NCBI RefSeq assembly: GCF_024055715.1
Contig: NZ_JAMXMV010000005.1
Coordinates: 310,001-374,000 of the forward strand
Reading direction: 5' to 3'
Source of the DNA: Actinoallomurus soli
GTDB lineage: Bacteria > Actinomycetota > Actinomycetes > Streptosporangiales > Streptosporangiaceae
DNA: 64,000 nucleotides
Within the stretch, counting starts at the first letter, position 1, and each line of letters begins with the position of its first letter. Under the pieces are notes generated by a model that had not been told where the DNA came from, did no database searches, and was given only the letters and a program-made list of their open reading frames with translations. This document shows, in pieces, positions 40,522 to 52,554 of the stretch. The position numbers and the translations under genes are program-made.

Positions 40522-41337
40522 TCAGCCACAGCCCTCGAACTGCGGGACCGTCGTCGTGACGTTCAGTCCCGTCGAGCCGAACCACCGCTTGAGCAGCTTC
40601 GCCGCCGTGCCGTCCTGGTACATCTCGGTGATCGCCTTGTTGACGTCCTCGCAGCCCCGGATGTCGCCCGGGCGCAGCCCGACGCCGTACCGTTCGTCGG
40701 AGAACGGCGCGTTGACGAACCGGACCTGGTTCCCGCGCTGCGCGGCGAAGCCCGCCAGGATCAGGTCGTCGGTGGAGATGGCGTCGACCTTGCCCGCGAT
40801 GAGGTCGTCCAGGCACTCGCCGTACGTCGAGGCCGGCACGAGCCGGGCGTCGATCTTGTGCTCCTCGGTGACGCGCCGCCAGGACACCGAACCGGTGACC
40901 TGGCACAGCCGTCTCCCGCGCAGGTCCCGTACGTTCCGCACCGCCGTCTCCGCGCCGCGCACGAGGATGTCCTGGTGCGCGACGTAGTACGGGCCGGCGA
41001 AGACGACCTGGGTCTTGCGCTCCTGCGTGATCGAGTAGCTCGACACGACCATGTCGACGTCGCCGCTCCGCAGCGCCCCCTCCCGCTGGCCGCTGGTCAG
41101 CGGCTTGAACGTCAGGTGCGTGGCGCCGAGCCGCCGCGCGACGTCACGGGCGACGTCGATGTCGAAGCCCTTGTAGGTGCCGCTCGAGTCGCGGAAGCCG
41201 AGGCCCGGCTGGTCCTGGGCGACGCCGACGACCAGGTGGTCCCTGCCGCTGACCGACGCGGTCGCCCCGCCGGCCACCCCGCATCCGGCCGACGCCAGCA
41301 ACAGCGTGACGGCGATGCCGATTCGACGTAGTCGCAT
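40522..41337 (-). CDS. glnH: GlnH-like glutamate/amino-acid binding lipoprotein of the PknG locus
   Basis: A 271-aa periplasmic-binding (SBP_bac_3) lipoprotein. Signal MRLRRIGIAVTLLLASAGCG has a lipobox with Cys19. The fold is shown by YKGFDIDVARDVARRLGA, VDMVVSSYSITQERKTQVVF and DLRGRRLCQVTGSVSW. No ABC permease or ATPase is linked. It is the last gene of the kinase operon, 12 bp after GlnX. In Mycobacterium tuberculosis, PknG (Rv0410c), GlnH and GlnX sense Asp/Glu availability, with GlnH as the outside receptor. The same role is inferred here. Confidence 0.88.
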   Translation of the reverse strand: MRLRRIGIAVTLLLASAGCGVAGGATASVSGRDHLVVGVAQDQPGLGFRDSSGTYKGFDIDVARDVARRLGATHLTFKPLTSGQREGALRSGDVDMVVSSYSITQERKTQVVFAGPYYVAHQDILVRGAETAVRNVRDLRGRRLCQVTGSVSWRRVTEEHKIDARLVPASTYGECLDDLIAGKVDAISTDDLILAGFAAQRGNQVRFVNAPFSDERYGVGLRPGDIRGCEDVNKAITEMYQDGTAAKLLKRWFGSTGLNVTTTVPQFEGCG

Positions 41338-41349
41338 CTGCGCGCTCCC

Positions 41350-42771
41350 TTACCGGTACTCGGACAGCCGCGGCCGGACCCCGGCGAGGATGAGGATGAT
41401 GAGGACGATCGCCGCGCCGGGCAGGATGACGTTCCACCCGCGCAGCCCGTGGTCCCCGGAGGCGATCGCCCGGTCGAAGGCGCGACCGTGCAGGTCCTTC
41501 AGCGCGACCAGCGCCTGGTCGTAGGCGTCGAAGTCGCCGGTGCCGCCGCCGAGCTTGGTCGTGAGGGCCGCGCGCCGGTCGCCGGAGGTCGCGACCAGCC
41601 GGATCGCACGGTCGTCGTGCTGGACCTTCTGGTATCCGGCCAGCACCTTCCGCAGCGCCGCCTGCTGCCCGGGCAGCGTGATGTGGTGCGCCTCGGTGCC
41701 GTAGAAGCCGAGGAAGTCGCTGCCGCCGATCTTCTCGTCGAGCAGGGAGTAGTAGCCGTCGAGGTTGCCGGCCGGGACGTAGAGGATCGCCTCGGACTTG
41801 TCCAGGTAGACCTGCTCGTACGTGTCGGCGCGCCCGGGGTCGAGCAGGTAGCGGCTCTCGTCCGCGTGGGCGCTGTTGCTGATCGCCCGGGCCCGCGACA
41901 GCGCCAGCACCGAGTCGAAGCCGTCCTCCTTGGCGGTCCGCAGGCGCCCGGCCTCGCTGGACAGGAGTGCCACGCTCACCACGACGAGCACGAACGCGCC
42001 CACCGTCGCGAGGGCGAGGAACGGGTTGACCAGGCGCCGGAAGCGAGCGGCGAAGTAGATCTGCACGCCGACGAGGACGACGACGAGCAGCAGGCCCGTG
42101 AGCGCCACCCAGACGCGGCCCCGCAGCACCGCCGACCGCTTCGCCTCGTACGTGCGGCGCACCTTCGTGCCGTTGTCCAGCGTCAGGTTGTACGCCTTCG
42201 GCAGGATGTCCAGCTTCATCAGGTCGGTCGCCTGCCGGTACAGGGCGGTGACGGCGGCCGGCGGCGGCCCGGCGGCGTGCCTGGACTGCTCGTCGGTGAG
42301 CAGCGCCTGGCCCGCCAGGCGCTCGTACCGGCCGAGCGCGTCCAGCATCTCCTGCGCGGTCCGCTGCTCGGTCGGGTCCGTGCCCGCCAGCCGCGACCCC
42401 TGCAGCAGCGCGCCGTTCGCCTCGGACCGGCGCTGCTCGTACACCTTCAGCGCCGCGGCCCGGCGGCCGGCCAGCCCGGCGTCCCCGCCGATCAGGAGCG
42501 CGTCGGCGAGCTGGGCGTCCATGTCGCTGAGCGCGAAGTACAGGTCGCCGGTGGCGACCACCTGCGGGCCCGCGTCGTGGCCGATCACCCGCAGCCCGTC
42601 GCGTGCGTTCCGTACGGTCAGCGTGGTGACGAGGAGCACGACGAGCACCGCCAGGGCCGCCAGCGCGGCCAGCGCGCGGATCCGGCCGGGCATCGTCCGG
42701 ATCCGCAGGCGCCCGGTCACCCGCCCTTCCCGCCGGGCCGGGGCGGGCGGGGGAGTCGTCGTGATCGTCAC
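41350..42771 (-). CDS. glnX: GlnX-like four-TM signal-transducing membrane protein
   Basis: A 473-aa membrane protein with TMs at about residues 33-52, 225-245, 255-275 and 448-466, flanking two large extracytoplasmic helical domains (DLYFALSDMDAQLADALLIG; SRARAISNSAHADESRYLLD), the topology of mycobacterial GlnX. It carries no kinase or enzyme motif. It should pass GlnH ligand status to the cytoplasmic kinase. The GTG start overlaps the FHA stop (GTGA), and glnH follows 12 bp later. Identification rests on topology and locus context. Confidence 0.8.
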   Translation of the reverse strand: MTITTTPPPAPARREGRVTGRLRIRTMPGRIRALAALAALAVLVVLLVTTLTVRNARDGLRVIGHDAGPQVVATGDLYFALSDMDAQLADALLIGGDAGLAGRRAAALKVYEQRRSEANGALLQGSRLAGTDPTEQRTAQEMLDALGRYERLAGQALLTDEQSRHAAGPPPAAVTALYRQATDLMKLDILPKAYNLTLDNGTKVRRTYEAKRSAVLRGRVWVALTGLLLVVVLVGVQIYFAARFRRLVNPFLALATVGAFVLVVVSVALLSSEAGRLRTAKEDGFDSVLALSRARAISNSAHADESRYLLDPGRADTYEQVYLDKSEAILYVPAGNLDGYYSLLDEKIGGSDFLGFYGTEAHHITLPGQQAALRKVLAGYQKVQHDDRAIRLVATSGDRRAALTTKLGGGTGDFDAYDQALVALKDLHGRAFDRAIASGDHGLRGWNVILPGAAIVLIILILAGVRPRLSEYR

Positions 42772-43574
42772 CGCAGCCTCCGCAGCGTGATGGTGGTCCA
42801 GACGCCCACGTGCACGCGGTCGCCGTCGCGCAGCGGCACCTCCACGTTGACGGGGATGGGCGTGTCGCCCTCGTTGATGGTCGTGCCGTTCGTGGACCCG
42901 GGGTCGACCAGCGTCCAGGTGCCGTCGGGCTTGGCCAGCAGGACGGCGTGCGTGTGCGAGACGCCCGGGTCGGCGGGCGGCTCACTGAGGTCGATCTCCG
43001 GGGTGATGCCGCGCGACGCGCTCCGCCGCCCGATCAGCAGCTGTTCTCCGGTGAGCGGGATGCGCCGGGACGGGCAGTACGGCGGGAACGTGAAGTCCTC
43101 GTCCTCGGTCACCACGCGGTCGTAGTACTCCCGGTCCGCGATGACGATGGCCGCCCAGTCGGTGGCCGGCGGCTCGGGCGGCGGGGCCTTCGCGGGCGCC
43201 CAGTCACGCGTGACCGGATCCTCCTCGTCCGGGTTCCCGGGCGCCGCGGCCTGCGGCGTGGGCGGAACCGGCACGGCGGGGGAGGACACGGGCGCGGCCG
43301 CCGGGGGACGCGGGGTGGGCCGGCCGCCGCCGACCGCGTAGTCATACCCGCAGTCCTCGCAGAAGCGCCCGGTGCGGGGCGCGCCGCAGTCGGGGCACGC
43401 CTCACCGCCCGCGGGCGTCCCCGTCGTGGGCAGCCCGGGTGCGGGAGTCCCGAGCGACGGCGTCACCGGCGCGGAGGACGCCGGCGGGACGGCCGGAGCC
43501 CCGCCGATGCGGGCGCCGCACACGTCGCAGTAGTCGGTGGCCGTCGAGGTGTGCCCGGCCGGACAGATCGCCAT
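42768..43574 (-). CDS. zinc-ribbon FHA-domain protein
   Basis: A 268-aa protein. Two N-terminal zinc ribbons (Cys4/His8/Cys16/Cys19; Cys60/63/72/75) and a Pro/Ala-rich linker precede a C-terminal FHA domain at about 175-265: LLIGRRSASRGI, SHTHAVLL (the Ser/His pair) and DPGSTNGTTIN. FHA domains bind phosphothreonine; GarA/OdhI, the known PknG substrate, is an FHA protein but is half this size and lacks zinc ribbons, and the GarA ETTS phosphosite motif is not seen here. It overlaps glnX and is two bases from the VWA gene. Probable phospho-reader of this operon's kinase. Confidence 0.88.
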   Translation of the reverse strand: MAICPAGHTSTATDYCDVCGARIGGAPAVPPASSAPVTPSLGTPAPGLPTTGTPAGGEACPDCGAPRTGRFCEDCGYDYAVGGGRPTPRPPAAAPVSSPAVPVPPTPQAAAPGNPDEEDPVTRDWAPAKAPPPEPPATDWAAIVIADREYYDRVVTEDEDFTFPPYCPSRRIPLTGEQLLIGRRSASRGITPEIDLSEPPADPGVSHTHAVLLAKPDGTWTLVDPGSTNGTTINEGDTPIPVNVEVPLRDGDRVHVGVWTTITLRRLR

Positions 43575-43576
43575 GC

Positions 43577-44872
43577 TCAGCCCTCGCCCCGGCGCGTGCG
43601 CACGGTCTTGGTGGAACGTGTGTCGAGGGACATCTCGTCCGCCTTGTCGACGTCCTTCTTGAGCCGTACGCGGCCGGTCGCCGGGTCGTCGACGTCGACG
43701 ACCTTGCCCAGGAGCGAGGCGATCGCCTCGTTGCCCGACTGGTGGGCCAGCGCGACGGCCCGGCCCAGCCGCGCCGTCGCGGTGTCGAGGTCGCCGTCCT
43801 TACGGGCCTGCAGGCCGACCTGGATGTTCTCGGCGAGCTCGGCCTGGCCGGTGTAGTGGGCGACCTTCGGGTTGATCCGGGTGGACTGGGCCTCGTCGTC
43901 GGTCCACTCGGCCAGGACGTTCCCGCTGGCCACCACCTGGTCGCCGAGCATCAGCTTGACCCACGCCGCCCGCATCTCCCGGCCGACCTCGCCGGCCGGG
44001 ACCTCGACGCAGATGTGGTAGTCGCGGCTCTCGCTGCCCCAGGCGCCGAGCGGGTAGTCCCCCGACCGCTCGTCGACGTCGGTCCGCCGTCCGGTGAGGT
44101 CCTCCACGGTCGGCAGCACCTGCTTGACGAACCGCAACTTGGCGAACTGCGGCGTCCACACCCGCAGCGCGACGTCCGCGACGGCCTTGCCCATCGCGGC
44201 CTCGGTCATCGCGCGGAAGTCGGCCTCCAGGGCCTCCGGGCTCGCCACCATGTCCAGGCTGCCGAGCAGCGCGGAGGCGACCTTCCGCAGCTCGGCGACC
44301 TCCCAGTCGGTGCCCACGCCGCGGCAGTCGCAGACGAACCGGCCGACGACCTGGGCGATCGCCGCGTCGAGCTGTTCCGGCGACTCGTGCTGGTTCTTGC
44401 CGTCGGTGAGCAGGATCGCGTGCCGGATGCCGTCCGGGTGCCCGGCGAACAGCCGCCCGGCGAGGGTCAGCCACGCGCCCATCGCGGTGCCGCCCGTCGC
44501 CTTGAGCCTGCTCAGGGCGGCCTTGGCCTCCGCGCGGGTCTGCGCGTTCGCGGGGACGAGCTCCTCGGCCTGCGGGTACACCATCTTCGCGCGGCTCGAC
44601 CCGGACACCACGGCGAAGTTCACCCCGTCGCGCAGCGTGTCCACCGCCGCCTGCGCCGCCTTGACCGCCGAGGTCATCTTGTTCCGCGGGTAGTCCATCG
44701 ACCCGGAGGTGTCGATGATGATGACTTCGGCCGCGGACGCCCCGGTGCCGGTCGCGACGCCGACCGGCGCCCCGGTCGACTCGACCGTGACGATCGCGTG
44801 GACCTCCTGGCCGCCCTGCGGCAGGTACTTGTTCTGGTCGATCCGGATGCTGAATTCCGGCTGTTCGGTCAT
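43577..44872 (-). CDS. VWA-domain protein of the kinase operon
   Basis: A 431-aa cytoplasmic protein. Residues about 45-225 are a von Willebrand A domain with a full MIDAS: DTSGSM at Asp54/Ser56/Ser58, the Thr in TGGTAMGAW, and the Asp in LLTDGKN. The C-terminal half is beta-rich and ends in a basic Thr/Arg tail (DTRSTKTVRTRRGEG) that could be phosphorylated. VWA, PP2C and kinase triads (TerY-P type) are known from comparative genomics; this is such a triad with a PknG kinase. ATG 44872 overlaps the PP2C stop (ATGA). Likely metal-dependent scaffold. Confidence 0.9.
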   Translation of the reverse strand: MTEQPEFSIRIDQNKYLPQGGQEVHAIVTVESTGAPVGVATGTGASAAEVIIIDTSGSMDYPRNKMTSAVKAAQAAVDTLRDGVNFAVVSGSSRAKMVYPQAEELVPANAQTRAEAKAALSRLKATGGTAMGAWLTLAGRLFAGHPDGIRHAILLTDGKNQHESPEQLDAAIAQVVGRFVCDCRGVGTDWEVAELRKVASALLGSLDMVASPEALEADFRAMTEAAMGKAVADVALRVWTPQFAKLRFVKQVLPTVEDLTGRRTDVDERSGDYPLGAWGSESRDYHICVEVPAGEVGREMRAAWVKLMLGDQVVASGNVLAEWTDDEAQSTRINPKVAHYTGQAELAENIQVGLQARKDGDLDTATARLGRAVALAHQSGNEAIASLLGKVVDVDDPATGRVRLKKDVDKADEMSLDTRSTKTVRTRRGEG

Positions 44873-45867
44873 GCGGCGTGCTCCTGTGTCAGGGGGATCA
44901 CCACCACGGTGATGTTGTCGCGGCCTCCGGCCTCCAGCGCGAGGCGTACGAGATGGCGGGCCGCGGTGAGCGGGTCCGCGTCCGGCAGAACGGCGGTCAG
45001 GGCCGCCGCCTCCGGGTAGTAGTTCCACAGCCCGTCGCTGCACAGCAGCAGCGTGCCGGGCCCCTCAGGGACGAACGTCGTGACGTGCGGCTCGATCTCG
45101 CCCGCGTCCGCGCCGAGCCAGGCGACGATGGCGTGGGCGTTCGGGTGGACCCGCGCCTCCGCCTCGGTCAGCACGCCGTGCGCCACCATCTCGGCGGCCC
45201 AGGAGTCGTCGGTGGTGAGCCGCCGTGACGCCTGCCCGGCGAGCCAGTACGCGCGGCTGTCGCCGACCCAGCCGACGGTGACGCCGGACGGCCCGGCGTA
45301 CGCCGAGACGTACGTGCAGGCCGGCGCGTCGTTCGGAGAGCCGGCGAGCGCCGTGACCGCCTCGACGGCGCGCCCCAGCGCGGCGCGCGTGGCCTTCTCG
45401 GGGTCGTCGCCCGCCTCGAGGCGTTCGGCGAGCGCGGCCAGGCCCGTGTCTGCGGCGGTCCGGGAGGCCGCCTGCGGCAGGGGAGAGCTCGACACGCCGT
45501 CGCAGACGACCGCCGCGACGCCCCCGGTGACCGCGGCCAGGGCCATGGCGTCCTCGTTGCGGCTGTGCCGCAGGCCCCGGTCGGTCACCCCGGCGGCGGC
45601 GCCCGCCTCCGTCTCGACGTGGTCGCGGTCGCCGGGCCGCAGCAGGCCGCACCGCTCGCAGTACCCGTCCTCGCTGAACACCGTCGAACCGCATCCCGCG
45701 CAGGCCCCGGCGGGCGCGGCCCCGCGCTCCGGTGAGGACGCGCCGGCCGGGAACCGGCCGTCTCCGACGGCGGGCGCCTCGGCCAGGGACCTGCCGCACG
45801 CCTCGCAGAACGCCTCACCGGCGAACACCTCGCTGCCGCACCACGGGCAGCTCTCCTGGGCGCCCAC
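44869..45867 (-). CDS. PP2C-type protein phosphatase with N-terminal zinc ribbons
   Basis: A 332-aa protein. Two zinc ribbons (Cys7/10/21/24 and Cys56/59/70/73) precede a PPM/PP2C domain with all metal ligands: LRHSRNEDAM (Asp106), VVCDGVSSS (Asp123), LLCSDGLWNYYP and GGRDNITVVVI. It should remove phosphate from Ser/Thr targets of the adjacent kinase. GTG 45867 lies three bases after the kinase stop, and its own stop overlaps the VWA start. The soluble form, without TM, differs from PstP of the PknA/B locus. Confidence 0.9.
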   Translation of the reverse strand: MGAQESCPWCGSEVFAGEAFCEACGRSLAEAPAVGDGRFPAGASSPERGAAPAGACAGCGSTVFSEDGYCERCGLLRPGDRDHVETEAGAAAGVTDRGLRHSRNEDAMALAAVTGGVAAVVCDGVSSSPLPQAASRTAADTGLAALAERLEAGDDPEKATRAALGRAVEAVTALAGSPNDAPACTYVSAYAGPSGVTVGWVGDSRAYWLAGQASRRLTTDDSWAAEMVAHGVLTEAEARVHPNAHAIVAWLGADAGEIEPHVTTFVPEGPGTLLLCSDGLWNYYPEAAALTAVLPDADPLTAARHLVRLALEAGGRDNITVVVIPLTQEHAA

Positions 45868-45869
45868 GC

Positions 45870-48359
45870 TCAGATCACCGTCACCGGGCGTACGGCGTTG
45901 GCCTGGTCGACCAGCCGGTGCCGTTCGGCGCGGGTGGTGGCCAGCCGGGCGAGCGACCGGTAGGTCTCCTCCAGCTTGCGGCGCAGCCCCGACTCGGTCA
46001 GCGGCGTGCCGAGCACCGAGCCGGTGCCGTCGCCGGCGCGGCGCACCCGGTCGAGCGCCGCCTCCAGCACGCCGAGGGCGAGCAGCCCGTGGCGGCCGGG
46101 GTCGAGGTCCAGGGCGGCGAGCCGGGCGCCGGCGCCGACGAGGTCCTCCTCGCCGATCTCGGCGGGGTCCCGGTCGCGTACGGCCGTGTTCACCGCGGAG
46201 ATCTGCGCCGCGACGTGGTGGCTGGAGATCCTCGGCACCGAGTCCAGCGCCCGCAGGGCGCCCGCGCGGTCCCCCATGGCGAGCCGCGACCGGGCCAGCC
46301 CGTAGCACGCCGAGACGAACGCCCGGTCGGTGCGCCACACGGCCTCATGCAGGCCCGCCGCGCCGGCCGGGTCGCCGAGCAGCTCCCGGCAGTACGCCAG
46401 GCCCAGCTTGGGCGCCGCCTCGCCCGGCATGAGGGTGTACAGCTCGTCGAACAGGCCCGCCGCCTCCGCGACGTTGCCGGCCGCCAGCACCGCGACCGCG
46501 CGGTACCAGCCGACCCGCCAGTCCTCCTGCGGCAGGGCGTCCAGGACCGCGTGCGCACCCGCCGCGTCGCCCAGCTCGATGCGCACCCGGGCCAGTGTCA
46601 GGTCGACCTCGGGCGTACGCGTGGGCGCGCTCGTCAGGGCGTCGGCGAGCCGCTCCGGCTCCAGTGCGGTCAGGCCGGCGAGGAACCCGGCGGCCGGGTC
46701 GGCGGACTCCACGAGCGGCGCCGGCAGTGTCGCGGCGGCGTCCGCCGGCAGGAGGAGCTCGAACACGTCCCCGGCCGTGAACCGCTCCGGCCCGAACAAC
46801 GTCGAGGCGGCCGGGCGAGGCTCGCCGTCCTCGGCGGACAGCACCTCGCGCAGCACGCCGGTGAGCTGGTCCGCCATGTCGGAGGCGTCCTGGAACCGGA
46901 AGTCCGGGTCGGGATGGGTGGCGCGGCGCAGCAGCCGGTCGTAGGACTCATGGCGAGCGAGGATCGGCACCTCCGCGCGCGGCGGCAGGTCCGCCGCCCA
47001 CTTGGTGGTGTAGCCCTTGAAGGGGAAGCTCAGCACGGCGAGCGTCCGGCCCACCGTGTACAGGTCGGAGCTCACCGAGGGGCCGACGTCGGCGATCTCG
47101 GGAGCCTGGTAGCCGACCGTGCCGTAGATCGCGCCGTCCACGTCGTCCACGCGCCGGACGCCGCCGAGGTCGATCAGCTTGAGCTGCTCCTCGGACTGGA
47201 TGGCGTTGTCCGGCTTGAAATCGCAGTACAGCACCCCGAGGCCGTGCAGGTAGTCGAAGGCGCGCAGCACCTCGATGCCGTACGCGATCACCTGGGGGAG
47301 CGGCAGCGCGGCGTCCGGACCCTCCCGCTCGCGCCGGTCCTTGAGGATGTCCTTGAGCGGCCGGCCGCCGACGTACTCCATGACGATGTAGCCGGAGCCG
47401 TCGTGCTGGACGAAGTTGTAGATCTTGACGATGTTGGGGTGCTCGACCTCCGCGAGGAACGCGCGTTCGGCCGCCGCGGCGGCCAGCGCGTCGGCGTCCC
47501 CGGCGTCGAGCAGGCCCTTGAGAACGACCCACCGGTCGCTGACGTTCCGGTCGCGGGCGAGGTAGATCCAGCCCAGGCCGCCGTGCGCGAGACAGCCGAG
47601 CACCTCGTACTGCCCGCCGACCAGGTCGCCCGCCTTGAGCTTCGGCGTGAACGAGAAGGGGGTGCCGTCCTTCGGGCAGAACCCCTCCGTGCGGCCCGGC
47701 CGGTCGCCGCGCGACCGCCCCACCGGCTCGCCGCAGACGCTGCAGAAGCGCTTGCTCTCCGCGACGACCGCGTCGGCCATGATCGCCGAGGCGGGGTCGC
47801 GGTACGGCACGCGCGGCACCTCGACCAGGCCCGCTCCCAGCATCCCGCGCCGGCGCGACGACGACCGCGACGAGCCGGTGCGGACGCTGCGGCTCGACGT
47901 GCTGCCCGTGCTCCCCGTGATCCCGGTGGACCCGGTGACGCCCGTCCCGCGGCCGGCCGTCGTGACCGATGCGGACCGCGCCGACGTCGGCGTCCCGCCC
48001 GACGCCGATCCGCTCGCCGAGGGCGGGGCCGATCCCGCTCCGGCGGCCGGGGCCAGCCCGCAGACGTCGCAGTACCCGTCCACGATCGTTCCACCGCAGC
48101 CCGGACGCGCGCAGCGGTCATCGGGCGCCGCGGCGGGAGGCGGCACGGCGGCCGCCTGAGGAGCGGCCGAGGCGGCCGCCGGGGCCGGAGCGCCGGCGGC
48201 CATGCCGCAGACGTCGCAGTAGCCGTCCTGGATGGTCCCGGAACAGCCGGGCCGAGCGCACCGGTCGTTCACCGGCGCGGCAGCGGTGGGTGCCATACCG
48301 CATACGACGCAATAGCCGTCCTCGACGGTTCCGGCGCAGCCGGGCTGAGTGCAGTTCAC
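45870..48359 (-). CDS. pknG: PknG-like serine/threonine protein kinase with zinc ribbons and TPR
   Basis: An 829-aa kinase. Three zinc ribbons of CxxxxC...CxxCG type (Cys3/8/17/20, 34/39/48/51, 83/88/97/100), then a Ser/Gly/Thr linker, a rubredoxin-like motif (CSVCG at 206-210), the kinase domain (CLAHGGLGWIYLA, Lys281 in WVVLKGLL, YCDFKPDN with Asp380, LIDLGG with Asp397) and a C-terminal TPR domain ending VRPVTVI. The HGGLGWIYLA loop and DLG in place of DFG are PknG signatures. The second rubredoxin motif is CPKDG, so the fourth Cys is Asp231. GTG 48359 overlaps the previous stop. It likely controls glutamate/TCA metabolism. Confidence 0.92.
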   Translation of the reverse strand: MNCTQPGCAGTVEDGYCVVCGMAPTAAAPVNDRCARPGCSGTIQDGYCDVCGMAAGAPAPAAASAAPQAAAVPPPAAAPDDRCARPGCGGTIVDGYCDVCGLAPAAGAGSAPPSASGSASGGTPTSARSASVTTAGRGTGVTGSTGITGSTGSTSSRSVRTGSSRSSSRRRGMLGAGLVEVPRVPYRDPASAIMADAVVAESKRFCSVCGEPVGRSRGDRPGRTEGFCPKDGTPFSFTPKLKAGDLVGGQYEVLGCLAHGGLGWIYLARDRNVSDRWVVLKGLLDAGDADALAAAAAERAFLAEVEHPNIVKIYNFVQHDGSGYIVMEYVGGRPLKDILKDRREREGPDAALPLPQVIAYGIEVLRAFDYLHGLGVLYCDFKPDNAIQSEEQLKLIDLGGVRRVDDVDGAIYGTVGYQAPEIADVGPSVSSDLYTVGRTLAVLSFPFKGYTTKWAADLPPRAEVPILARHESYDRLLRRATHPDPDFRFQDASDMADQLTGVLREVLSAEDGEPRPAASTLFGPERFTAGDVFELLLPADAAATLPAPLVESADPAAGFLAGLTALEPERLADALTSAPTRTPEVDLTLARVRIELGDAAGAHAVLDALPQEDWRVGWYRAVAVLAAGNVAEAAGLFDELYTLMPGEAAPKLGLAYCRELLGDPAGAAGLHEAVWRTDRAFVSACYGLARSRLAMGDRAGALRALDSVPRISSHHVAAQISAVNTAVRDRDPAEIGEEDLVGAGARLAALDLDPGRHGLLALGVLEAALDRVRRAGDGTGSVLGTPLTESGLRRKLEETYRSLARLATTRAERHRLVDQANAVRPVTVI

Positions 48360-49513
48360 TTTCTGTCTCCGATCGCGCGCTGGTACTCCGCCAGCGCCGC
48401 CGTGGATCGCCGCAGGTCGCAGGGGGAGGTCCAGAGCAGGTCGTAGGCCCGCTGGTAGAGCGCCGTCAGCTCGGGGTCCTCCAGGCCGCCGAGCCGCCCG
48501 GCCTTCGCGCGGTAGGCGTCGAGCCGGCCGCGCAGCTCGTCCCGACGCTCCAGGAGCCCGGCGATCGTCGCCACGGTCGTCCGCGCCTGGTCGAGGGCGC
48601 TCGCGGCGGCCTCCTCCAGCCGCGCGACGCGCACCGCGACGTCGGTCCACCGGCCCCGTACGGCGCCGAGCGCGGCCAGCCGGTCGGCCAGCGCCGCCGA
48701 CGAGTCCGGCAGGTCCGGCAGCATCGGTGCGGCGATCTTCGCGAGGACCCGGTCGCGCACGGTCCTGGCCTCGTCCTCGGCCGCGCGGATCAGGCCGATC
48801 GTCTCCTCGACGCGCCGCAGCCGCTCGTCGTACTCGGCCCGGACGCGTGCCGCCTCCTCCAGCCGGGAGCGCAGCGCGTCGAGGGCGGCGTCGACGCCGT
48901 CGAAGGCGCCCGGGCCGATCGACAGCGGGTCCGTCCGCACGGTCTCGCGGAGGCCGTCGAGCTCACCCTTCACCCGGTCGTACTCCGGGTCGGGGCCGAG
49001 GGAGTCCAGCATCCCCTCCACGGCCCGTGCGGTCCCGGACGCCCGATCCAGCCGGGTGAGCAGCGCCGACCAGGCGGTGTCCACCTCGGCGATGTCCCGC
49101 GCCGCCTCCTCGTACAGCGCGGTCATCCGGGCCACCACGTCGTCCAGGGACAGGCGCTCGGTGGACGGGCCGAGCAGCGTCCGCCGCTCGAGGGGGATCC
49201 GGGTGGCCAGCTCGATCGACGGGCCGCGCGTCAGGTGTTCGAGCTCGGCGAGCTGCCCCTGGTCCGGCCGGCCGCGTCGCGCCCGGATCTCCTCGGCGCG
49301 GGCGAGCACCCCGCCGTACGCCTCGAACAGCCGCCACAGCGACGCCATCCGGTCGCCGATCACGGCCCAGCGGTCGGCGGTGAGCCCGGTCAGCGGCGCG
49401 CCCTTGAGGAGCTTGTAGCCCTGCTGCGCCTCGAGATCGAGCAGCCCGGCCGTGATGCGGTCCCGCTCGTCGCGCAGGCGGCCGAGGACGCGGTCGACCT
49501 CATCCCGGTTCAC
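48356..49513 (-). CDS. coiled-coil protein opening the kinase operon
   Basis: About 385 aa from GTG 49513 (VNRDEVDRVLGRLRDERDRI); a GTG at 49528 in the same frame is an alternative. The protein is almost wholly helical with heptad-rich segments (LEEAARVRAEYDERLRRVEE, RVARLEEAAASALDQARTTV) and one conserved-looking block GYKLLKGAPLTGLTADRW. There is no TM or enzyme motif and I do not recognise a named family. Its stop overlaps the kinase start (GTGA), so it is tightly coupled and probably a structural or adaptor partner of the kinase. Confidence 0.8.
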   Translation of the reverse strand: MNRDEVDRVLGRLRDERDRITAGLLDLEAQQGYKLLKGAPLTGLTADRWAVIGDRMASLWRLFEAYGGVLARAEEIRARRGRPDQGQLAELEHLTRGPSIELATRIPLERRTLLGPSTERLSLDDVVARMTALYEEAARDIAEVDTAWSALLTRLDRASGTARAVEGMLDSLGPDPEYDRVKGELDGLRETVRTDPLSIGPGAFDGVDAALDALRSRLEEAARVRAEYDERLRRVEETIGLIRAAEDEARTVRDRVLAKIAAPMLPDLPDSSAALADRLAALGAVRGRWTDVAVRVARLEEAAASALDQARTTVATIAGLLERRDELRGRLDAYRAKAGRLGGLEDPELTALYQRAYDLLWTSPCDLRRSTAALAEYQRAIGDRK

Positions 49514-49528: not shown

Positions 49529-49842
49529 TTCTAGCCCGCGCGCGCCGACCCCGGAAAGGGCGCCATGCGGACGAATTTTGCGCTGTTATGGCTTTTTGTC
49601 GGGTGCCTAGTTTTCCCCAAAGCCGGAGCCGTCACAAGCGATCCCGGCGCCATCCCCGAGTGGCCGGGCCGACCGCCCCGCCTTCCACCCCGCCGCCGAG
49701 CGGCGCTCCCATCGGCCGCCTGCGGTGAGCCCGGAATCGTCGGTGAAGAACCGCCCGCACGTTTTGAGGGCCGATGTCACACTTCCGGGACGGCGTCGCT
49801 CTCAGGTGGTGACCCGAATGCCGACGGCAGAAGGAACCCGCC
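49529..49842. other. intergenic region between the kinase operon and the ECF41 sigma gene
   Basis: This 314-bp divergent spacer holds no credible gene. A relatively A+T-rich patch (about 49570-49620) is the best place for the leftward promoter of the seven-gene kinase operon, though no clear -35/-10 pair stands out. An ECF41-type promoter motif for the rightward sigma gene lies at 49775-49797. Short open frames here are antisense or composition-driven. Confidence 0.6.
49775..49797 (+). promoter_or_regulatory. ECF41-type promoter motif
   Basis: TGTCACA (49775-49781) and CGTC (49794-49797), 12 bases apart, match the -35 and -10 elements described for ECF41 sigma factors. The site is 46 bp before the sigma gene's own ATG, implying autoregulation. 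Confidence 0.6.
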
Positions 49843-51258: not shown

Positions 51259-52554
51259 TCAGCTTCTTGGTCGTGAACGGCTGAGCTTGGAGCCCGGACG
51301 TTCGCACCTCGTTGCGCTCCCCGTCGCGGCTGGGTGTCGCGTCGGGGTCGCATCTCCCCTCGCCCTGCTGTTGGGGCGGGGGACGGGCATGCTGACGAAT
51401 GCCCACGCCACGCACGCCCGTTTCCGGATGTTGGTGGCGGCGATGACGTCGGCGGGGCCAGCGAACCCACACCGGCGGCAACAGAAGACATCCCGGTCGG
51501 GCCGGTTGGCCCGCTCGGTGTGCCCGCACCATGGCACGGGACACCGCTGGGAGGTGTAGGCCGGGTCCACTTCCACGAACGGCACCCCGGCTCGTTGGGC
51601 CTTGTACTGGATGAAGGTGCCGAGTTGGTGGAAGGGCCAGGAGGAGTGCGTGGCCCGCTGGTGCCGCTTGAGCCGTACCCGGTCGCGTATCCCGCTCAGT
51701 TCCTCGAGTGCGATACCGCGTCCGGTGCGTTGGGCATCGGCCACGATTCGCTTACTGATCTTGTGGTTCTCGTTCGAGGCGTGCCGCGCCTCCCGCTGTG
51801 ACCGGCGGGCCAGCCGGCGGGCGGCCGACCGGCTGCCTGCGGCTTTCTTGGCCTGAAGTTCGGCGCGCAACCGGGCCTGCCGGCGGCGGTATCGGGCAAG
51901 GCCCTTGCCCTGGTGGTCGTCTCCGTCGGAGGTGGTGGCCAGGTTCACGATCCCCCGGTCCACTCCGATCCAATCGGCAGGCTCGAACCGCGGGGCTGTT
52001 TGGACGTCACAGGTGGCGATCAGGAAGAACATCCCGTCGCGGTGGACAAGGTCGGTTTCACCCATTCTGTGGGTCGCCAGGAACTTAAGCTGCCCGGGCT
52101 CGCCGGTGAAGGCGATGCTCCGGAGGCGGCCGTGCACCGTCCAGATCGACACGGTCCGGGCGTCCATCTGCCACGATAGGCACCGGTCATCGAACGGCTG
52201 GGCGGCATCGGCCCGCACCATGATGGGCTTGGAGACCGCCTTACGACGCCGCCGAGAGTGCTCACCACCCAGCAGACCAGCCGCGATCTGGGCGTGCAGC
52301 GTCGTGTATGCGTCGGCGACCTTACGGATCACATGCAACGCGGGCTGCGCCGACAGCCCTCGAGCCTTCAACTCCGCGTACACCATCTTCTGCAGCTTCT
52401 GCCGGGCGAACACGCCGCGGGTGAACGCGACCGCCGACACCTCATTCGCCACGGTGTTGCACAGCGACAGGGTCGCCGCCAGTGCCGCCGCCTGCTCAGG
52501 CGTCGGCAGCAGCTTCATCTGCACCGCTAGCTTCACGATCCGTGACGTTATCAT
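51259..52554 (-). CDS. tnpB: IS200/IS605-type TnpB (RNA-guided nuclease family)
   Basis: A 431-aa TnpB/OrfB. The three RuvC carboxylates are intact: Asp in WIGVDRGIVNLAT, Glu in GIALEELSGIRDRV, Asp in GPADVIAATNIRKR. The zinc finger CPVPWCGHTERANRPDR...CCRRCGF precedes the last. The N-terminal HTH region (LLPTPEQAAALAATLSLCNT) is canonical. No tnpA transposase is adjacent, so it is an IS1341-like or domesticated copy. The element's right end must lie within 29 bp of the DoxX stop, and a guide RNA would arise from the 3' end of this gene. ATG 52554. Confidence 0.93.
   Translation of the reverse strand: MITSRIVKLAVQMKLLPTPEQAAALAATLSLCNTVANEVSAVAFTRGVFARQKLQKMVYAELKARGLSAQPALHVIRKVADAYTTLHAQIAAGLLGGEHSRRRRKAVSKPIMVRADAAQPFDDRCLSWQMDARTVSIWTVHGRLRSIAFTGEPGQLKFLATHRMGETDLVHRDGMFFLIATCDVQTAPRFEPADWIGVDRGIVNLATTSDGDDHQGKGLARYRRRQARLRAELQAKKAAGSRSAARRLARRSQREARHASNENHKISKRIVADAQRTGRGIALEELSGIRDRVRLKRHQRATHSSWPFHQLGTFIQYKAQRAGVPFVEVDPAYTSQRCPVPWCGHTERANRPDRDVFCCRRCGFAGPADVIAATNIRKRACVAWAFVSMPVPRPNSRARGDATPTRHPAATGSATRCERPGSKLSRSRPRS

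Follow-up and report, generated by a model that had tools for sequence, protein, structure and literature searches.

The window analysed here, a stretch of 64,000 nucleotides from the 9.4 Mb genome of Actinoallomurus soli, carries a run of seven minus-strand genes (40522-49513), which begin with the start of CC at 49513 and end with the end of GlnH at 40522, the order of transcription being CC, PknG, PP2C, VWA, FHA, GlnX and GlnH (Table 1). Overlaps of 4 bp join CC to PknG (GTGA), PP2C to VWA (ATGA) and FHA to GlnX (GTGA), and gaps of 2 bp, 2 bp and 12 bp separate PknG from PP2C, VWA from FHA and GlnX from GlnH, respectively; reading of the junctions thus bears out the initial annotation, which had described seven leftward genes with overlaps or gaps of 2-12 bp. 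Key motifs are intact in the named products of the cluster. A close relative is Actinoallomurus spadix (family Thermomonosporaceae), with a 94% identical GlnX.

Table 1 Genes of the cluster and the conserved upstream element, in the order of transcription.
Feature	Position	Strand	Description
Element	49609..49637	-	TTGTGAYG-N9/10-TTGGKGRAMACT; 96 nt before CC
CC	48356..49513	-	385 aa, family unassigned; GTG start
PknG-type kinase	45870..48359	-	GTG start overlaps the CC stop
PP2C phosphatase	44869..45867	-	N-terminal double zinc ribbon
VWA protein	43577..44872	-	Intact MIDAS, VWA_3_C domain; homologue of PDB 4fx5
FHA protein	42768..43574	-	FHA, 44.8 bits
GlnX	41350..42771	-	Four hydrophobic segments with two large loops between; C-terminal GVRPRLSEYR
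GlnH	40522..41337	-	Family-3 amino-acid binding protein; SBP_bac_3, 112.5 bits

On the 3' side, the next tested gene with a Pfam match on the same strand encodes an oxidoreductase and lies 770 bp away; a divergent ECF-type sigma gene lies 5' of the operon. A sigma-70 scan gave no match, and the three terminator-like sites detected, against 1.4 expected, are all on the opposite strand. The upstream element (29-30 bp), a candidate promoter or operator, is found once each, about 95-130 nt before CC, in 7/7 Actinoallomurus-clade loci (the window together with L009-L014), whereas the remaining 261 loci compared lack it; within the A. soli genome it occurs once, and the reversed pattern has no match. 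In L011, L013 and L014 the element runs into an inverted repeat, GGTGGA-N6-TCCACC. Nearby, an IS605 OrfB/TnpB-like gene with a Cas12f1-like TNB domain occupies 51259-52554 (minus strand), close to a DoxX gene and an ECF sigma gene.

The kinase consists of three N-terminal zinc-ribbon-like repeats, a Ser/Thr/Arg-rich linker, a rubredoxin domain, the kinase domain and a TPR domain, in that order (289.7 bits for PknG_TPR, 102.3 for PknG_rubred and 94.0 for Pkinase; E = 4.1e-164 against PDB 2pzi), so that the three parts by which PknG is recognized, rubredoxin, kinase and PknG TPR, are all present. When motifs in the window were compared with up to 55 relatives, the kinase Lys, the catalytic Asp, the Lys, the Asn and the Asp and Gly of the DLG motif were kept in 53/53 relatives, and the three rubredoxin cysteines in 52/53 (the exception, judged by match coordinates, being L171); the PknG of Corynebacteriaceae is described as having no rubredoxin domain (PMC6069109). 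Across 78 rows representing both the seven-gene and the three-gene forms, 43 columns of the TPR domain are at least 93% conserved. Mycobacteriaceae-like PknG N-termini (L140, L142) contain a stretch, TQALFRPDF, which resembles the VFRADF stretch of GarA from the same family and is absent from the zinc-ribbon PknG N-termini displayed.

Among the other products, PP2C scores 47.7 bits for PP2C_2 and 29.5 for the double zinc ribbon, its conserved acidic residues being present in the window and in 38/38 relatives, with a variable Arg in the RNED motif. The VWA protein (VWA_3_C, 76.7 bits; VWA_3, 47.4 bits) is the only VWA_3_C match in the A. soli genome, and its MIDAS (DxSxS, T, D) is complete in the window and in 39/39 relatives. 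The FHA protein is made up of two zinc-ribbon-like motifs, a Pro-rich linker and the FHA domain, whose pThr site retains Gly-Arg, Ser and Asn, with His where Arg usually follows Ser; relatives keep the Gly, Ser and Asn in 38/38 and the Arg in 37/38. Here and below, families carry f-numbers, f1 being the window's own; the GlnX models and the lack of a rubredoxin domain suggest that f3 probably corresponds to Streptomyces and f4 to Mycobacteriaceae sensu lato. The His after the Ser is shared by the window and all 26 f1-type and f3 rows. CC, the putative coiled-coil protein of the initial annotation, gave no match in Pfam, NCBIfam or PADLOC.

The N-terminus of GlnH reads as a putative lipoprotein start. 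At the positions of R147, T162, S164, R169, W232 and D250, mapped by hand from the 6h1u alignment and the residues named in PMC6069109, the window protein has Arg, Ser, Ser, Arg, Tyr and Asp. R147 of M. tuberculosis GlnH contacts the side-chain carboxylate of the ligand (PMC6069109), and its equivalent is found in 55/55 relatives, compared with 51/55 for R169 and 52/55 for D250; W232 is replaced by Tyr in the window and 17/17 f1-type rows, and by Gln in 10/10 f3 rows, a variation of the pocket that we count against the relay reading given below. Because the GlnH of M. tuberculosis has a higher affinity for aspartate than for glutamate (Kd 4.8 and 15.2, respectively; PMC6069109) and the window pocket differs from it (Tyr for W232, Ser for T162), glutamate is to be named as the ligand with care. 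By sequence, an acidic amino acid is the likely ligand of the window GlnH, less surely so of GlnH in other families.

GlnX matches NF058618 with 300 bits (cut-off 250) and falls below the mycobacterial equivalog NF041460 (68.9 bits vs 780). A simple hydropathy scan gives four TM segments, and the protein ends within about 10 residues after the last of them, in a tail that is its most conserved part: mean identity in a wide 48-row set is 0.70 for the tail, 0.61 for the TM2-TM3 loop, 0.58 for the short N-terminus, 0.48 and 0.39 for the periplasmic parts and 0.38-0.45 for the TM segments. The tail motif G-x-x-x-R-[LIVM]-x-E-[YF] (GxxxRLxEYR) was identified in 137/147 GlnX tails, a few of which are the same locus entered twice, that is, in 80/80 from named genomes (the best 80 of 127) and in 57/67 others. 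The ten tails that depart from it comprise four of the form RINDYR and three of the form RRxE (f90 and f8), together with L186, L187 and the decayed L133. In the 48-row set, Gly and Arg are present in 48/48 tails, Glu in 46, Tyr in 45 and the last Arg in 44. GlnX termini have already been proposed as possible peptides for the PknG TPR domain (PMC6069109), and the mode of the GlnX-PknG interaction has been termed elusive (PMC9769921); in the accessible text of these two papers, a description of the tail motif was not found. The RLxEYR tail is the best candidate, from conservation, for docking on the TPR domain of PknG, and a ten-residue tail conserved in most families examined makes the GlnX-PknG contact directly testable.

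PknG_TPR scored above its cut-off in 31/396 genomes of the phylum, and GlnX in 122/394 genomes of the class. Gene order was scored with purpose-built profiles, BLAST having missed some PknG rows (e.g. L036), at 80 GlnX loci from named genomes, the best 80 of 127 relatives, 57 of which had enough flank on both sides. CC-PknG-PP2C-VWA-FHA-GlnX-GlnH lie on one strand in 51 of these 57 full-flank loci, with an extra kinase downstream in one of the 51 (L025); among the genera of the 80 loci are Actinomadura, Streptosporangium, Microtetraspora, Thermomonospora, Acrocarpospora, Planomonospora, Planobispora and Murinocardiopsis. The six other full-flank loci are without PP2C (L055, L085), GlnH (L069, L088), CC (L068) or both PP2C and FHA (L086), and where a contig end truncates the locus, as in the other 23, the stretch that is left follows this order in part (L037 and L082 without PP2C). 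The exact order in 51/57 loci therefore places the cluster beyond chance and beyond a local oddity, and sustains the claim that PknG, GlnX and GlnH form a conserved unit with PP2C, VWA, FHA and CC.

In other families the order is permuted. GlnX-GlnH-CC-PknG-PP2C-VWA-FHA is the arrangement of all 12 f3 loci that are intact, and it recurs in f90 (six loci, L152-L157), f84 (L158) and f4 (two loci, L165 and L203); in f8 (L160-L162) and f109 (L159) the set is present without a CC match, in L167 (f90) the contig ends before the FHA position, and in L134, from another class, the two operon halves are divergent. The genome search for the seven-gene order that had been suggested at the outset thus finds it conserved beyond close relatives, permuted in other families and with some genes missing. 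The spacing is less constant: measured from a stop to the start of the next domain, which gives upper bounds, the median distances in the 12 f3 loci are 69-445 bp, except for CC-PknG, and by the same measure (again upper bounds) FHA-GlnX and GlnX-GlnH are never at 30 bp or below in the 51 window-type loci. Tight spacing is thus not universal, which we count against the reading of all seven genes as one relay. In f90, GlnX occurs alone at a contig end (L168), GlnX-GlnH occurs beside another kinase (L186) and PknG with divergent GlnH-GlnX (L187-L189). Cassettes of PP2C, VWA and FHA, two of them with CC, are also found in f90 with GlnX absent and the PknG match absent or partial (L212, L213, L220, L221), and these, too, count against that reading. 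VWA is absent or a remnant in L204-L208, and the PP2C match is absent in L169 as well as in the five loci named above. Accessory genes are lost singly in some genomes, and own-family L185 has none of the four; they are hence dispensable, which again counts against that reading, and more likely tune the relay than make it.

Several other arrangements were observed. The f3 locus L133 (G369) is a decaying operon, with PknG nearly gone, VWA fragmented and GlnX and GlnH partial. Further f3 loci (L129-L132) contain PknG-like kinases without GlnX, which in L130-L132 are paired with VWA, and L211 (f1) and L214 (f113) have PknG-VWA-GlnX with no GlnH match. The pairs of a PknG-like kinase with VWA in L130-L132, L211 and L214 are part of a wider kinase-VWA theme.

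Among 20 f4 GlnX loci, 18 show only GlnX-GlnH-PknG (the contig ends just after PknG in two of them, L139 and L141), and two show all seven genes (L165 of G719 and L203 of G640), the latter two genomes each carrying a three-gene locus as well (L215 and L166, respectively). PknG stands alone in f4 L136 and L137, and three genes only are found in both first f113 loci (L163, L164) and in L185 from f1. Tallied by eye among genomes with GlnX, VWA_3_C is present in 37/37 of f3, 8/8 of f8, 20/28 of f1 and 2/35 of f4, with absences that are not firm (17 candidates were scored per genome); the two f4 genomes are those with the full operon. The eight f1 genomes without VWA_3_C have no VWA (G493, G547, G555, G573, G696), a remnant (G455), a partial VWA (G608) or a contig end (G426). 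In two further f8 genomes GlnX is matched no more than weakly, and G410 and G658 (f90) have VWA_3_C without GlnX.

The GlnX tree unites both seven-gene copies from f4 with the 13 three-gene rows of that family in a single clade (support 100/99), in which the two forms are separate sister groups; a quick PknG tree without bootstrap places the f4 seven-gene copies in the same neighbourhood, and in a quick VWA tree they fall inside no other family. These trees are best matched by a single old set from which four genes were lost in f4 and once more in L185 (f1), and the three-gene form studied in mycobacteria may well be a reduced one; the f113 three-gene rows lie deep in the midpoint-rooted PknG trees, so that three genes could also be ancestral. 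Conceivably, at somewhat less than an even chance, the seven-gene set represents the ancestral PknG complex of Actinomycetes, with a GlnX-tethered kinase, a phosphatase, a reader and a scaffold, the GlnX tail being held on the TPR domain, and the three-gene form is its remnant. If true, this would account for the presence of a TPR dock on PknG in three-gene systems with no dedicated phosphatase beside it. Seen against the larger operon, the version of mycobacteria may turn out to be a special case.

Outside the operon, the A. soli genome contains two GarA-like genes (196.9 and 179.1 bits, cut-off 200), both covering nearly the whole model, one of which adjoins, by sequence reading, a MerR-like gene, as ftsR adjoins garA in relatives. 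GarA was found in 24/24 genomes (best matches 162.9-233.3 bits) and in 24/24 of a second sample; since GarA is encoded elsewhere, the operon FHA protein adds to it and is not its replacement. As a candidate GarA/OdhI, the operon FHA protein was rejected, with 21.1 bits for NF041660 (cut-off 200) and no conserved ETTS-like linker motif in 16 rows. T14 of OdhI, the first Thr of ETTS, is the PknG site (PMC9769921); both A. soli GarAs have Ser at this position and keep the next Thr. Among families the T14 position is Ser, Val, Gln, Ala, Arg or Lys, with the next Thr kept in most rows. Given this variation, a PknG phospho-site in GarA is not to be assumed, and we count this against the relay reading. 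An N-terminal zinc ribbon is common in GarA across the class (e.g. L192, L193): GarA of this form is present in 17/17 genomes outside f4 that have an extended set, A. soli among them (some sets lack CC or another gene), in 8/8 own-family genomes without GlnX and in the own-family three-gene genome G573. In f91, where a GlnX match is absent, 9/9 of the GarA matches listed begin at query residue 1-5, and in the two f4 genomes with both operon forms GarA has no zinc ribbon. A tie between the zinc-ribbon GarA and the operon was accordingly rejected, the ribbon following the clade.

We read the operon, at about an even chance of being right, as a self-contained GlnH-GlnX-PknG relay with an accessory reader, phosphatase and scaffold, the three-gene operons being reduced. 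In three-gene systems, GlnH and GlnX are required for the action of PknG on GarA/OdhI (PMC6069109, PMC9769921, PMC8546545). An amino acid outside the cell, probably an acidic one, would be bound by GlnH, which would alter GlnX via the two periplasmic domains of the latter. GlnX would pass the signal to the PknG TPR domain by its short segments in the cytoplasm, chiefly the RLxEYR tail. Once active, PknG would phosphorylate its own Ser/Thr-rich linker and targets that would include GarA encoded elsewhere; the operon FHA protein would bind the phospho-sites as an adaptor, PP2C would reset them, and VWA and CC would hold the parts together. A reversible phospho-switch is plausible from these gene products. 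Three-gene operons of the Mycobacterium and Corynebacterium types would be reduced descendants that rely on other phosphatases. We infer every physical interaction in this scheme, the direction of the reduction and the roles of FHA, PP2C, VWA and CC.

An alternative is that two modules share one kinase, GlnX-GlnH-PknG feeding GarA, and CC-PP2C-VWA-FHA serving another PknG process (envelope or development) that does not involve amino-acid signals. The sensor pair moves as a block, being located downstream in the window's family, upstream in f3 and f90 and divergently in L134, and both the GlnX-less cassettes and the PknG-like kinases paired with VWA without GlnX (L130-L132) are suggestive of such a division; however, all seven window genes are joined by overlaps or 2-12 bp gaps, and within f4 VWA_3_C is confined to two genomes, each of which carries the complete set, so we regard two modules as unlikely. 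That the operon FHA protein itself acts on metabolism, as an inhibitor similar to GarA and under the control of PknG, appears quite improbable: known PknG substrates are FHA proteins (PMC9769921) and the operon is shared, but the score against the OdhI model, the lack of a conserved linker motif and the two GarA-like genes elsewhere, one beside the MerR-like gene, speak against it.

The initial annotation had also merged the amino-acid sensor with a TerY-P-like triad. A stress or defence triad of the TerY-P type that happens to include PknG would account for the adjacent kinase, PP2C and VWA, a theme that recurs in actinobacterial GAP1-N2 systems (PMC7159879). However, TerD is absent from the genome, the VWA protein matches VWA_3/VWA_3_C and is of the 4fx5 type, and PADLOC yields 31 families matching the kinase, one weak match to PP2C and none for the other five products; this part of the annotation does not hold, and we consider such a triad most improbable. 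A known defence system was likewise rejected, PADLOC matches being confined to generic kinase and phosphatase domains.

Searches in the text of open papers returned no description of the seven-gene set, although Fig. 2B (STRING) of PMC6069109 may show neighbours; in the accessible text of PMC1262709 the relevant terms occur and are not joined as one set, and the nearest published text concerns kinase-PP2C-vWA neighbourhoods in another system (PMC7159879). Among open papers, as far as their text was accessible, the initial statement that the combined circuit has no known description thus stands. With the larger operon, a kinase that matters in medicine and industry gains candidates for its phosphatase, its reader and its scaffold.

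Kinase, PP2C and VWA occur together in the TerY-P triad, and a kinase, a PP2C and an FHA reader in the PpkA-PppA-Fha set of type VI secretion. The window differs from the former in that its genome has no TerD and its VWA no TerY-type match, and from the latter in its score for the TagH model (23.6 bits, cut-off 120.25); in P. aeruginosa PpkA, the vWA lies inside the kinase protein itself (PMC1262709). Neighbourhoods of GAP1-N2 GTPases in actinobacteria resemble the window in the adjacency of an active kinase, often with a zinc ribbon, a PP2C and a standalone vWA (PMC7159879), but contain GTPase and GAP1 genes, none of which is among the seven, whereas the window has the sensor relay and FHA. 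The GlnX-GlnH-PknG operon of M. tuberculosis, M. smegmatis and C. glutamicum encodes the same three proteins (PMC6069109, PMC9769921) and shares with the window the four TM segments and short C-terminus of GlnX, GarA/OdhI in the genome and the rubredoxin-kinase-TPR core of PknG, of which C. glutamicum lacks the rubredoxin part. Unlike this operon, the window has four more genes, a PknG N-terminus of zinc ribbons and a Ser/Thr-rich linker, and a different GlnH pocket.
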